Translations under genes and position numbers: made by a program
Source: an uncultured Bacteroidales bacterium
GTDB taxonomy: Bacteria; Bacteroidota; Bacteroidia; Bacteroidales; Muribaculaceae
DNA: 64,000 nucleotides
Assembly: GCA_902776435.1 (NCBI GenBank)
Contig: CACYQB010000017.1
Coordinates: forward strand, 44,558-108,557
Direction of reading: 5' to 3'
Notes under the pieces: generated by a model
Databases searched by the model: none
Told to the model about the DNA's origin: nothing
The model's input: the letters and a program-made list of their open reading frames with translations, nothing else
Part shown: positions 21,270-64,000 of the stretch, piece after piece
Layout: the number at the start of each line of letters is the position of its first letter
Numbering within the stretch: position 1 is the stretch's first letter

Positions 21270-21355
21270 AAGAGGATGTGTCATAAATCACGTCTATTAT
21301 TATATCCGTGCTACGCACAGAGAAATTAAGAGACCTAATTATGACACATCTTCTT
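21270..21355. repeat. 86-bp element with 17-base imperfect inverted ends
   Basis: aagaggatgtgtcataa at 21270-21286 pairs with ttatgacacatcttctt at 21339-21355, with one mismatch. It sits between convergent genes. It may be a two-way terminator or a small transposon-derived element, since the GAGGATGTGTCA ends resemble insertion-sequence ends. Confidence 0.55.
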
Positions 21356-49156: not shown

Positions 49157-50347
49157 ATGTTTGGAAAATTCCAGGAACATCTCCAGAAGGAGCTCGCCGA
49201 CATCCAGGCTGCCGGTTTGTACAAGAATGAACGCATCATCACCACGCCGCAGCGCGCCGACATCCAGGTGAAGCCCAATGACGAGGTGCTGAACTTCTGC
49301 GCTAACAACTATCTCGGCCTCAGTGACAACAGCCGTCTGATCAAGGCTGCCACCGAGACCATGTCCCACCATGGCTACGGTATGTCATCGGTTCGCTTCA
49401 TCTGCGGTACCAGCGATATCCACAAGGAACTTGAGGCTGCCATCGCCGACTATTTCCACACCGAGGACGCCATCCTCTACGGCTCATGCTTTGACGCTAA
49501 CGGTGGTCTGTTCGAGGCCCTGCTGACCGAGGAGGATGCCATCATCAGCGACTCGCTGAACCATGCTTCGATCATCGACGGCGTGCGCCTGTGCAAGGCT
49601 AAACGCTACCGCTATGCCAACGCTGACATGGGCGAGCTCGAGGAGTGCCTCAAGCAGGCCCAGGAACAGCGCTTCCGCATCATCGCTACGGACGGCGTCT
49701 TCTCGATGGACGGCAATGTGGCTCCCATGGACAAGATCTGTGACCTGGCTGAGAAATATGACGCCATGGTCATGGTTGATGAGTCACACTCGGCAGGCGT
49801 CGTTGGCCCGACCGGTCACGGTGTAGCCGAGCAGTACAACATCTATGGCCGCATCGATGTCTTCACCGGCACGCTGGGCAAGGCCTTCGGCGGTGCTATG
49901 GGCGGTTTCACCACTGGCCGTAAGGAGATTATCGACATGCTGCGTCAGCGTTCACGTCCTTACCTGTTCAGCAACAGTATCGCTCCCGGCATCGTTGGTG
50001 CCAGCATCGAGATGTTCAAGATGCTCAAGGAGAGCAACGCCCTGCACGACAAGTTGGTGGACAATGTGAACTACTTCCGTGACAAGATGATTGAGGCCGG
50101 CTTCGACATCAAGCCCACCCAGAGCGCTATCTGCGCCGTGATGCTCTACGACGCCAAGTTGTCGCAGGACTTCGCTGCCGAGCTGCAGAAGGAAGGCATC
50201 TACGTTACCGGTTTCTACTATCCCGTTGTTCCCAAGGGCCAGGCTCGCATCCGCGTGCAGGTATCAGCCGGTCACGAGCGTGAGCACCTCGACAAGTGCA
50301 TCAACGCCTTCATCAAGATTGGCAAGCAGATGGGAATCATTAAGTGA
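49157..50347 (+). CDS. kbl: Glycine C-acetyltransferase (2-amino-3-ketobutyrate CoA ligase)
   Basis: The 396 residues are a PLP-dependent alpha-oxoamine synthase. The PLP lysine is Lys242 (TGTLGKAFGG), with VDESHSAGVVG at 207-217 and NFCANNYLGLS near the start. It converts 2-amino-3-ketobutyrate and CoA to glycine and acetyl-CoA, or the reverse. With the SDR-type threonine dehydrogenase at 34430 it completes threonine breakdown. Related enzymes make sphingolipid bases (SPT), but the sequence around the Lys and the C-terminus (YPVVPKGQARIRVQVSA) is of the Kbl type. Confidence 0.93.
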   Translation: MFGKFQEHLQKELADIQAAGLYKNERIITTPQRADIQVKPNDEVLNFCANNYLGLSDNSRLIKAATETMSHHGYGMSSVRFICGTSDIHKELEAAIADYFHTEDAILYGSCFDANGGLFEALLTEEDAIISDSLNHASIIDGVRLCKAKRYRYANADMGELEECLKQAQEQRFRIIATDGVFSMDGNVAPMDKICDLAEKYDAMVMVDESHSAGVVGPTGHGVAEQYNIYGRIDVFTGTLGKAFGGAMGGFTTGRKEIIDMLRQRSRPYLFSNSIAPGIVGASIEMFKMLKESNALHDKLVDNVNYFRDKMIEAGFDIKPTQSAICAVMLYDAKLSQDFAAELQKEGIYVTGFYYPVVPKGQARIRVQVSAGHEREHLDKCINAFIKIGKQMGIIK

Positions 50348-50348
50348 G

Positions 50349-50410
50349 GCTTTAGGTTTTAGGCTTTAGGTGCCAACTAAGGACTAAGAGCTAAGGACTA
50401 AGGACTAAAA
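50349..50410. repeat. Two 7-base arrays after kbl, in one register
   Basis: gctttag, gttttag, gctttag (50349-50369), a spacer of about 7 bases, then actaagg, actaaga, gctaagg, actaagg, actaaaa (50376-50410). Confidence 0.75.
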
Positions 50411-62938: not shown

Positions 62939-63361
62939 ATGACCATCCACATTATCAATGGTCCTAACCTGAACCTCGTGGGCCTGCGTGAGCCCGAGGT
63001 TTATGGCAACCGCTCGCTTGACCAGTACCTGCAAGAACTGATTGAGCAGTTCCCACAACACTCGATTGACGTCTATCAAAGCAACATCGAGGGCGAAATC
63101 GTTGACCGCCTGCAGGCCGTCGGTTTTGACGACTGCGGCATCATCCTCAACGCTGGCGGCTACACCCACACGTCGGTCGCCATCGCCGATGCCGTTGCGG
63201 CCATCACCGCCCCCGTGGTAGAGGTTCACATCAGCAACATCTACGCCCGTGAGCCTTTCCGCCACAAGTCCCTCTTGTCCCCCGTCAGCAAAGGCATCAT
63301 CGCTGGCTTCGGCCTCGACAGCTACCGCCTCGCCCTCCACTCCCTTATCTCAACATGTTAG
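62939..63361 (+). CDS. aroQ: Type II 3-dehydroquinate dehydratase
   Basis: The 140 residues match the dodecameric type II enzyme of the shikimate pathway: IINGPNLNLVGLREPEVYG with catalytic Tyr22, NAGGYTHTSVAI, and EVHISNIYAREPFRHKS with catalytic His and Arg. It turns 3-dehydroquinate into 3-dehydroshikimate for aromatic amino acids. The TAG stop (63359-63361) is inside the left inverted repeat of the next element, so insertion may have changed the last codons. Confidence 0.94.
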   Translation: MTIHIINGPNLNLVGLREPEVYGNRSLDQYLQELIEQFPQHSIDVYQSNIEGEIVDRLQAVGFDDCGIILNAGGYTHTSVAIADAVAAITAPVVEVHISNIYAREPFRHKSLLSPVSKGIIAGFGLDSYRLALHSLISTC

Positions 63362-63882
63362 AAGACAAGAAAGACAAAAAAGACAATTTTTTTATTTTTA
63401 ATTGTTTTCAATTATGATAGATATAGAGTCATTAAAAAAGCATTTGTATGATATAGTCGGTGCCATCTACGAAGTCCATAAAGAGCTTGGCGCTGGGCTA
63501 AATGAATACTGTTATCAAGAGGGACTACAAATGCAACTGGAAGAGCAAAAGACTCCATATCATAGGGAGATGACCTTCCATCCTTCTTATCATGGTCAAC
63601 CTATGCAAGCAACATACCGTGTGGATTTCTTATGTAAAGAAGACATTATTGTTGAATGCAAGGCGGTGGATGATCTAACGAATAACATGCGTTCTCAACT
63701 ATACAATTACATGCGTCTGCTTAAACTACCATGTGGAATCATTGTTAATTTCGCTTCCAAAACCGTTAAAGTAGAACGCTATTTCTTTGACAAAGAAACT
63801 AACGAAATTATATCAGTTGATGGACATGCTATCCACCAATATCGTTAAATAATAATTGTCCTTCTTGTCTTTCTTGTCTTCT
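63360..63882. mobile_element. GxxExxY element with 29-bp inverted ends made of 9-base units
   Basis: Left end 63360-63388 has units agaagacaa, gaaagacaa, aaaagacaa. Right end 63854-63882 is its complement with 27 of 29 bases matching. The 523-bp element holds only the GxxExxY gene and AT-rich flanks, with no transposase. Confidence 0.7.
63414..63848 (+). CDS. GxxExxY protein, PD-(D/E)XK nuclease fold
   Basis: The 144 residues carry the naming motif as Gly28, Glu31 and Tyr34 (GLNEYCY), and a nuclease-like core: Asp71 (YRVDFL) and Glu81/Lys83 (VECKAV). The family (PDDEXK_3) is common and variable in Bacteroidetes and Planctomycetes, and its biological role is unknown. GC is far lower than in aroQ beside it, so it was probably gained recently. 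I chose ATG 63414; an upstream TTG is in frame. Confidence 0.9.
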   Translation: MIDIESLKKHLYDIVGAIYEVHKELGAGLNEYCYQEGLQMQLEEQKTPYHREMTFHPSYHGQPMQATYRVDFLCKEDIIVECKAVDDLTNNMRSQLYNYMRLLKLPCGIIVNFASKTVKVERYFFDKETNEIISVDGHAIHQYR

Positions 63883-63953
63883 GAACTTGCTGGCGAAGGC
63901 ATGTATCGTCCTGAAATAGTTTGACAAAAATGTCAGATAAAATCAGGACTAAA

Positions 63954-64000
63954 ATGAGAACAGTAAAACGAAGAACGGATTATGAGATTTTGGAGATACT
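63954..64000 (+). CDS. Start of a gene cut by the window edge, perhaps a transposase
   Basis: The frame reads MRTVKRRTDYEILEI and continues past the edge. Upstream, tgtatcgtcctgaaatag and the palindrome tgacaaaaatgtca look like the end of an insertion sequence, perhaps IS3-like. The basic start fits a small DNA-binding transposase subunit. Too little is visible to be sure. Confidence 0.4.
   Translation, partial: MRTVKRRTDYEILEI

Follow-up and report, generated by a model that had tools for sequence, protein, structure and literature searches.

The described systems closest to the locus reported here are the REPIN/RAYT pairs, in which the RAYT gene is single-copy, vertically inherited and often flanked by REP sequences, and in which REPINs are commoner where the gene is present, according to the available excerpts of two papers (PMC8049555, PMC3733652). 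Our locus, a GxxExxY nuclease gene between inverted arrays of short units, lies at one end of a 64,000-nucleotide stretch of DNA from an uncultured Bacteroidales bacterium, and we refer to this whole stretch as the window. The locus resembles a REPIN/RAYT pair in its near single-copy, inherited gene flanked by repeats (here with 18 of 23 shared chromosomal sites keeping one subtype, and with the qualification that the aroQ site itself has seen replacements) and, as far as those excerpts go, in its dispersed gene-free inverted pairs, which are able to form hairpins and tend to be more numerous in genomes with the gene. It differs in its enzyme, which is of the PD-(D/E)XK type here and of the HUH/Y1 type there, in its arrays, which consist of mostly 8–10 base units without a GTAG tag, and in the coexistence of several subtypes with different units within one genome. 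In TIRYT/TIRtron elements, a gene lies within long inverted repeats that are unrelated to GTAG REPs, and some of these elements have repeat families in the genome, as described in the excerpt available (PMC3733652). The difference from our locus is that they encode tyrosine transposases.

The intervening sequences of 23S rRNA are bracketed by inverted repeats. A small PF05635 (IVP) gene has been described within such an inserted stretch, in the part of the paper available (PMC11270868). PF05635 is a four-helix bundle and no nuclease, and the classic copies lie inside rRNA genes. The window cassette differs in carrying a PF13366 gene that adjoins aroQ. It also differs from a CRISPR array, in that its units are 9-mers arranged head to tail rather than repeats parted by long unique spacers, and from an insertion sequence or transposon, in that it encodes PF13366 alone, with no transposase or recombinase. 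The heptamer repeats of Cyanobacteria and Beggiatoaceae, which we take to be the STRR and TAACTGA repeats, are seven-base direct repeats, and are closer to the PF05635-type arrays described below than to the arrays of the window. Such heptamer direct repeats have been reported in Beggiatoaceae, Cyanobacteria and Bacteroidetes, with no gene assigned to them in the excerpt available (PMC4679880); on that description, they share with the GxxExxY arrays a dispersed, intergenic, short-unit organization and, in part, the phyla in which they occur.

The cassette at the end of aroQ

The whole cassette spans positions 63360 to 63882 of the window (forward strand) and consists of a left array, the nuclease gene and a right array. 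Its upstream neighbour on the same strand (62940 to 63361) is presumably aroQ, and since the stop codon TAG of that gene occupies positions 63359 to 63361, the left arm begins within it. The left array (63360 to 63391, forward strand) is made up of the 9-mers AGAAGACAA, GAAAGACAA and AAAAGACAA (63360 to 63386), followed by a T tract. It is followed by the GxxExxY gene (63414 to 63848, forward strand), an open reading frame of 144 aa that matches the profile PF13366 (PDDEXK_3). The right array (63851 to 63882, reverse strand) is inverted, and reads AGAAGACAA, GAAAGACAA and GAAGGACAA inwards from 63882, so that each arm is composed of three 9-base units arranged head to tail. The two arms are complementary at 29 of 32 positions, and at 27 of 29 over a 29-base stretch. 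Aligning the upstream with the downstream flank of the gene gave a score of 51, compared to a maximum of 31 in 2000 dinucleotide shuffles of the flanks, and an equal-spacing scan with two 32-mers gave 29/32 at the cassette and at most 19/32 anywhere else in the window. The gene has a GC content of 37% and the cassette one of 35%, whereas aroQ reaches 58% and the window as a whole 52%. A Pfam search found PF13366 to be the sole gene between the arms, and neither a transposase nor a recombinase is encoded in the cassette. The earlier note on this DNA, made from its letters alone, had described inverted 29-bp repeats around the gene, three 9-mers per array, a left end that takes in the aroQ stop codon, a gene richer in AT than its surroundings and the absence of a transposase, and all of these descriptions were borne out.

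Terminator calling on the two arms of the window called none. The left arm by itself is nearly unfolded (−1.6 kcal/mol), and GTAG occurs in neither arm. The contig stops 118 bases past the right arm, and the downstream neighbour is thereby outside the view. By eye, another reading frame begins at 63900 to 64000 of the window (MRTVKRRTDYEILEI...), at the contig end, and is possibly a mobile element that broke the assembly.

The GxxExxY protein

To our knowledge, GxxExxY proteins are widespread and have no assigned job. The protein of the window matched PF13366 with an E value of 4.8e-31 and 108 bits, against a cut-off of 22. In all 54 sequences compared, that of the window among them, the residues D71, E81, K83, Q95 and Y99 are invariant; the window protein also has G28, E31 and Y34. 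Its structure model reached a pLDDT of 92.8 and a pTM of 0.86. The best Foldseek match of this model was 4ic1, which we take to be the Cas4 protein SSO0001 (E 2.6e-3, TM 0.52), and the other near solved structures were RecE, the Cas4-family ACE1 and, lower down, lambda exonuclease; no Foldseek match had an E value below 0.001, and a sequence search against solved chains returned none at an E value of 1 or better. The window protein is modelled as a Cas4/RecB-like PD-(D/E)XK nuclease with intact active-site residues, and the PD-(D/E)XK fold previously attributed to GxxExxY proteins is upheld by the confidence of the model and the presence of D71, E81 and K83. The fold and QxxxY, a motif of the Cas4/RecB family, are common to Cas4/RecB-family nucleases and the window protein. 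Unlike Cas4, the protein is only 144 aa long and its arrays are not CRISPR-like, and the Cas4 cysteine set, which belongs to an iron-sulphur cluster, is not among the conserved columns of GxxExxY proteins. One cysteine column comes close to full conservation among relatives, and the window protein has glycine there. Values of dN/dS were 0.04–0.12 in the 6/107 pairs with scorable dS, which came from four sites.

In the literature, a GxxExxY gene has been reported where cas4 was expected, in the available part of one paper (PMC8934634), and in a viral gene table, in an excerpt of another (PMC12085832). No link of GxxExxY to repeats was found among open-access texts, a body that leaves aside preprints and includes few subscription papers, and five repeat strings matched only work on animal subjects.

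Inverted arms around GxxExxY genes in other genomes

Of the 61 genomes searched, 44 had PF13366, among them 34 of the 37 same-genus genomes, and copy numbers per genome reached 12. For each gene, we defined the arm score as the best local alignment of the upstream 250 bases with the reverse complement of the downstream 250 bases, and used a threshold of 28, fixed after seeing the 95th percentile of mismatched pairs. In related genomes, 83 of 90 GxxExxY genes (the window's included; one of 91 loci was omitted for its short flank) scored at least 28, compared to 0/73 neighbouring ORFs. Arrays scattered at random, with no link to GxxExxY genes, had been named in the earlier note as an outcome that would speak against it, and the zero among neighbouring genes shows otherwise; the inverted arrays also differed between loci, as the note had anticipated. 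When the set was enlarged by 40 loci, 114 of 130 GxxExxY genes passed and 16 remained below the threshold (one of 131 loci omitted, again for a short flank).

In other groups, 54 of 75 scorable GxxExxY genes passed and 21 did not, compared to 11/356 neighbours that passed. These loci come from the best 80 of at least 578 relatives, five of the 80 having been dropped for short flanks; many are from Bacteroidota, with single records from Planctomycetota, Ignavibacteria, Anaerolineae, Acidobacteria, Omnitrophota, Neomarinimicrobiota, Gammaproteobacteria, an archaeal bin and others. Most arrays in these groups are of CACAGAG, CGCAAAG or CGCTAAG type. A score of 38 puts the archaeal bin (L196) over the threshold, with the proviso that bins can be contaminated.

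Two rankings count against a pairing of nuclease and arrays, as do the genes that stayed below the threshold. The own flank pair ranked first against the flanks of other loci in 46 of 91 cases, in a mismatched-pair control in which the other loci often carry related array types, and in the other groups the own pair lay above the 99th percentile of mismatched pairs in 19/75. Some loci on the protein tree showed no clear arms by eye (e.g., L005, L021, L028, L221, L223 and L251). Measured by autocorrelation, unit periodicity was above the 95th percentile of shuffles in just 27 of the 85 left arms. Gene-carrying elements were also searched for an outward inverted repeat around them, and 12/113 exceeded the 95th percentile of mismatched pairs, which is little beyond chance.

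Array type, protein subtype and agreement between arms

On a tree of 124 proteins, neighbouring proteins by eye carry like array units, the types being GAAAGACAA, CAACTTGAA, CGCTAAGRC, GATCTCACN, ACGAATTAA, CACGAATGN and the hairpin-bearing GAAATTAAACAAATT. The pairing of array sequence with protein subtype that had been looked for earlier is therefore seen on this tree, as judged by eye; physical linkage alone could explain it, and it is no proof of recognition. We then compared own with cross-species arms at the eight GxxExxY sites with at least 4 copies, using unpicked 250-base flanks and leaving out L021 (no clear arms) and L255 and L253 (broken genes). Own arms beat cross-species arms in 154 of 188 pairs, with 27 in reverse and 7 ties; at two of the eight sites, own arms were better in only 6/10. 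The better match of own arms indicates that the left and right arms changed together. A version of this comparison with alignment-picked arms (156 to 31) was discarded, because the picking favours the own pair. Among 34 arms with a clear period, mismatches between left and right fell on 42 of 626 positions in unit cores and on 88 of 453 in spacers. This pattern is as expected if a protein reads the core, rather than the arms only pairing with each other.

Gene-free copies of the arrays

The genome of the window contains gene-free (solo) copies of its own array pair, which we read in five places, with the layout of an arm, about 20–30 AT-rich bases and an inverted arm. The own-array pattern had 21 matches in this genome, including the two arms of the window, and its reversed control had none. 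One solo copy folds as single-stranded DNA with −16.8 kcal/mol (z −5.0). We counted patterns of four array families (GACAA, CTAAG, CACGAATG and hairpin) in the 61 genomes. An array-rich clade of 18 same-genus genomes had up to 88 pattern matches per genome; the other 19 same-genus genomes had 0–4, except for 16 CACGAATG matches in G016, and the 24 genomes of other families mostly had 0–4, with 14 and 9 CTAAG matches in two of them. With the reversed pattern as a control, genomes of the genus had 0–2 matches each and those of other families at most 4.

Across the 37 genomes of the genus, and with the arms of the genes themselves subtracted, solo numbers were higher where the cognate nuclease was present (GACAA, p 0.0012; CTAAG, 1.5e-4; CACGAATG, 0.001; hairpin, 1e-4), with p-values that are inflated by shared ancestry. 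Within the array-rich clade only, and again uncorrected for ancestry, the values were 0.0065 for CTAAG, 0.015 for CACGAATG and 0.038 for hairpin, and GACAA, the family of the window itself, shows no link there (p 0.69). The CTAAG presence calls include L221 (a gene without clear arms) and L077 (a broken gene). At least 8 solos in genomes with no detected cognate nuclease were seen for GACAA in 5 genomes, CTAAG in 10, CACGAATG in 4 and hairpin in 7, and the genome of the window itself has many solos with no detected cognate gene for two families. Two genomes with the nuclease have at most 2 solos, which counts against a pairing of the two. In the other groups, own arms had a relative elsewhere in their locus slightly more frequently than foreign arms did; they ranked 1–3 in 9 of 43 cases (3 expected), and lay above the foreign median in 25/43 (Wilcoxon p 9e-4).

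In one place (L303) at which five relatives have the complete CACGAATG element with its nuclease, the genome of the window has a gene-free CACGAATG pair. One solo site of G025 (L341) was searched for an empty counterpart; 34 genomes had a match, and none crossed the junction. In relatives, the sequences to the left and right of L341 align to places apart from each other, and L341 may therefore lie at the breakpoint of a rearrangement. At L238, two more gene-free CACGAATG-type pairs were seen by eye in tandem downstream of the gene.

Copy number and chromosomal sites

Comparing nucleases within each of 31 genomes gave 207 pairs, whose identity had a median of 36% and never exceeded 84%, and hence no recent multiplication of gene-carrying copies was seen. 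Within a subtype the gene is close to single-copy, and it is often passed on at a fixed site. Among 161 elements (131 GxxExxY and 30 PF05635), 23 chromosomal sites are common to at least two species; 18 of these keep one subtype and 5 hold different subtypes (as clusters at 55% identity), two of the five having GxxExxY in some species and PF05635 in others. The earlier suggestion that the cassette moves with its nuclease thus has to be corrected, since the gene copies are near single-copy at fixed sites, whereas it is the gene-free array pair that has multiplied.

The aroQ site is occupied in the genome of the window and in 12 relatives, one of them with a broken gene. The arms were over the threshold in 11 of the 12, and the broken-gene copy scored 25; a gene at this place without inverted arrays, which would have told against the earlier description, was not seen. 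In relatives, the site is the junction of aroQ and a gene that by eye is O-methyltransferase-like. Of 30 aroQ loci that we read, 9 have the cassette (the window's included), 10 have the next gene within about 15–102 bases and no cassette, 1 (L119) has a one-arm remnant only, and 10 have another neighbour. The empty sites foreseen at the aroQ end thus exist in 10 genomes, with junctions too diverged to define the ends of the cassette, and no target-site duplication was identified. The cassette at aroQ is of the GACAA type in some species and of the AACAAC type in others, and in two species a GACAA cassette by eye lies beside AACAAC array remnants, from which it appears that one kind replaced another there.

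A second family with a like architecture

Six of the eight best-scoring control genes of the other-group loci resembled small four-helix-bundle proteins, and the four of these that were tested were all PF05635. This family occurs in 50 of 61 genomes. PF05635 genes had inverted arrays in 23 of 30 cases compared to 0/26 neighbours, with mostly 7-base units, such as TTTAGGC, CTAGTCC, GTTGACC and CAGTTGT (L311–L340; also L161:3250–3730). At two sites, among them that of L001, L033 and L321, PF05635 stands where other species have GxxExxY cassettes. Two unrelated small proteins, GxxExxY and PF05635, therefore have a like architecture, and this likeness, together with their alternation, means that the arrangement is not the nuclease's alone, which counts against a pairing specific to it. 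Short heptamer tracts of the PF05635-array type (TTTAGGC, GGACTAA) are present at 50344 to 50410 of the window.

Interpretation and alternatives

The analysis suggests that the nuclease and the repeats form a working pair. We consider it reasonably probable that the cassette belongs to a repeat family acting in the manner of a REPIN/RAYT pair, and that it is the member of this family that carries the gene, here for a PD-(D/E)XK nuclease. Such a system works like that pair and is not a member of it, since its enzyme is no tyrosine transposase and the repeat of the window has no GTAG hairpin. We infer its recognition, cutting, copying, movement and selective reason as follows. The nuclease would bind the repeated unit core of its own arrays, helped in one subtype by end-specific hairpins, and would cut at or near the array ends; host replication or repair would then copy the hairpin-forming segment elsewhere. 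Solo copies would be non-autonomous derivatives, and the left and right arms would stay alike because both are read by one protein. Ancestry as a confounder of the solo counts, a target site that the comparisons failed to define and the Y1 transposases found in most genomes weigh against this reading.

Alternatively, the arrays could be the ends of elements that are moved in trans, for example by a Y1/HUH transposase, with the nuclease as a passenger or accessory. HUH enzymes read end hairpins, structures of the kind found in one of our subtypes, and Y1 transposases occur in 54 of 61 genomes; yet they also occur in 34 of 36 other same-genus genomes, 17 of these 34 outside the array-rich clade, so that Y1 is not sufficient. 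As the nuclease is the only gene encoded in the element, and as array sequence goes with nuclease subtype (even if linkage alone could bring this about), we judge such mobilization unlikely. Quite unlikely, in our assessment, is that the arrays stay in place and control the nuclease gene or end transcription, as binding sites or as RNA structures, with the solos as regulatory sites of a regulon. The close position of both arms against the gene, the folding of one solo copy as a hairpin and unit cores conserved like a protein-binding site would suit this, but no terminator was called in the arms of the window, occupied and empty forms exist at aroQ and full and gene-free forms at the CACGAATG site, and solo copy numbers vary widely between genomes of one genus.

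The replacements at shared sites bring up a further explanation, in which certain intergenic sites attract small array-bracketed genes whose cargo is swapped by recombination, the link between array and protein being a matter of hitch-hiking. This agrees with the five of 23 shared sites at which subtypes differ between species, including two with GxxExxY as well as PF05635, and with the AACAAC remnants that by eye adjoin a GACAA cassette at the aroQ site of two species. Since 18 of 23 sites nevertheless keep one subtype, swapped cassettes bring their own arrays, and solo arrays elsewhere go with nuclease subtypes (a link confounded by ancestry, which for GACAA fails within the clade), we hold it to be very unlikely. 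Chance similarity of AT-rich intergenic DNA, which the A-rich, low-complexity arms might bring to mind, is contradicted by the shuffle, equal-spacing and neighbour-gene controls, and has a negligible probability.

A wider reading can be put forward, tentatively and at a little less than even probability: that GxxExxY nucleases drive a large class of REPIN-like repeats, so far undescribed, across many bacterial phyla, and perhaps archaea (one archaeal bin), which would explain common CACAGAG, CGCAAAG, CGCTAAG, GATTAAACG and GACAA intergenic repeats, and that the unrelated PF05635 reached a like arrangement with 7-base units, both competing for the same places in the chromosome. The tie between subtype and array gives GxxExxY proteins a concrete candidate substrate, and offers an origin for short intergenic repeats of many environmental and gut bacteria. 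Should the pair indeed spread repeats, its engine would be a nuclease of restriction-type fold and no transposase, which would make it a REPIN-like system and an independent solution to a selfish or domesticated REPIN-like lifestyle.

A hairpin-bearing subtype with polar ends

For the hairpin subtype, we collected 74 arms, in part from selected loci of the match list and in part from gene loci. Just outside the unit array, 62 of the 74 arms have a 6-base stem that is fully paired, compared to 0/194 in shuffles; the window's own subtype has no such end hairpin. The end hairpins are of two types, CCGCCC/GGGCGG at one end and CCGTGC/GCACGG at the other, with variants. Among 33 two-arm loci, 24 have two different end hairpins and 1 has two alike, while in 8 one or both arms were left unclassified by the rule. 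In the seven gene-carrying elements with both arms classified (L032, L039, L046, L051, L052, L062 and L069), CCGCCC/GGGCGG lies upstream and CCGTGC/GCACGG downstream of the gene. These distinct, conserved end hairpins suggest that folded single strands may be recognized in this subtype.

By eye, an outer inverted repeat of the GGGTGTGTCATAATT kind encloses 13 of 24 hairpin solos (L271–L310), at a distance of about 16–23 bases from both end hairpins. Only 2 of the 24 exceed the mismatched control for this outer repeat, because the solos share it. It was not found nearby in five gene-carrying copies (L032, L039, L046, L062 and L069), and might mean either that the solos inserted into terminators or that the mobile unit has a further outer part. 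The window itself contains a one-armed hairpin element (TCCGTGCTACGCACAGAGAAATTAA) at 21277 to 21348, which lies within the outer inverted repeat TGTGTCAT...ATGACACA.
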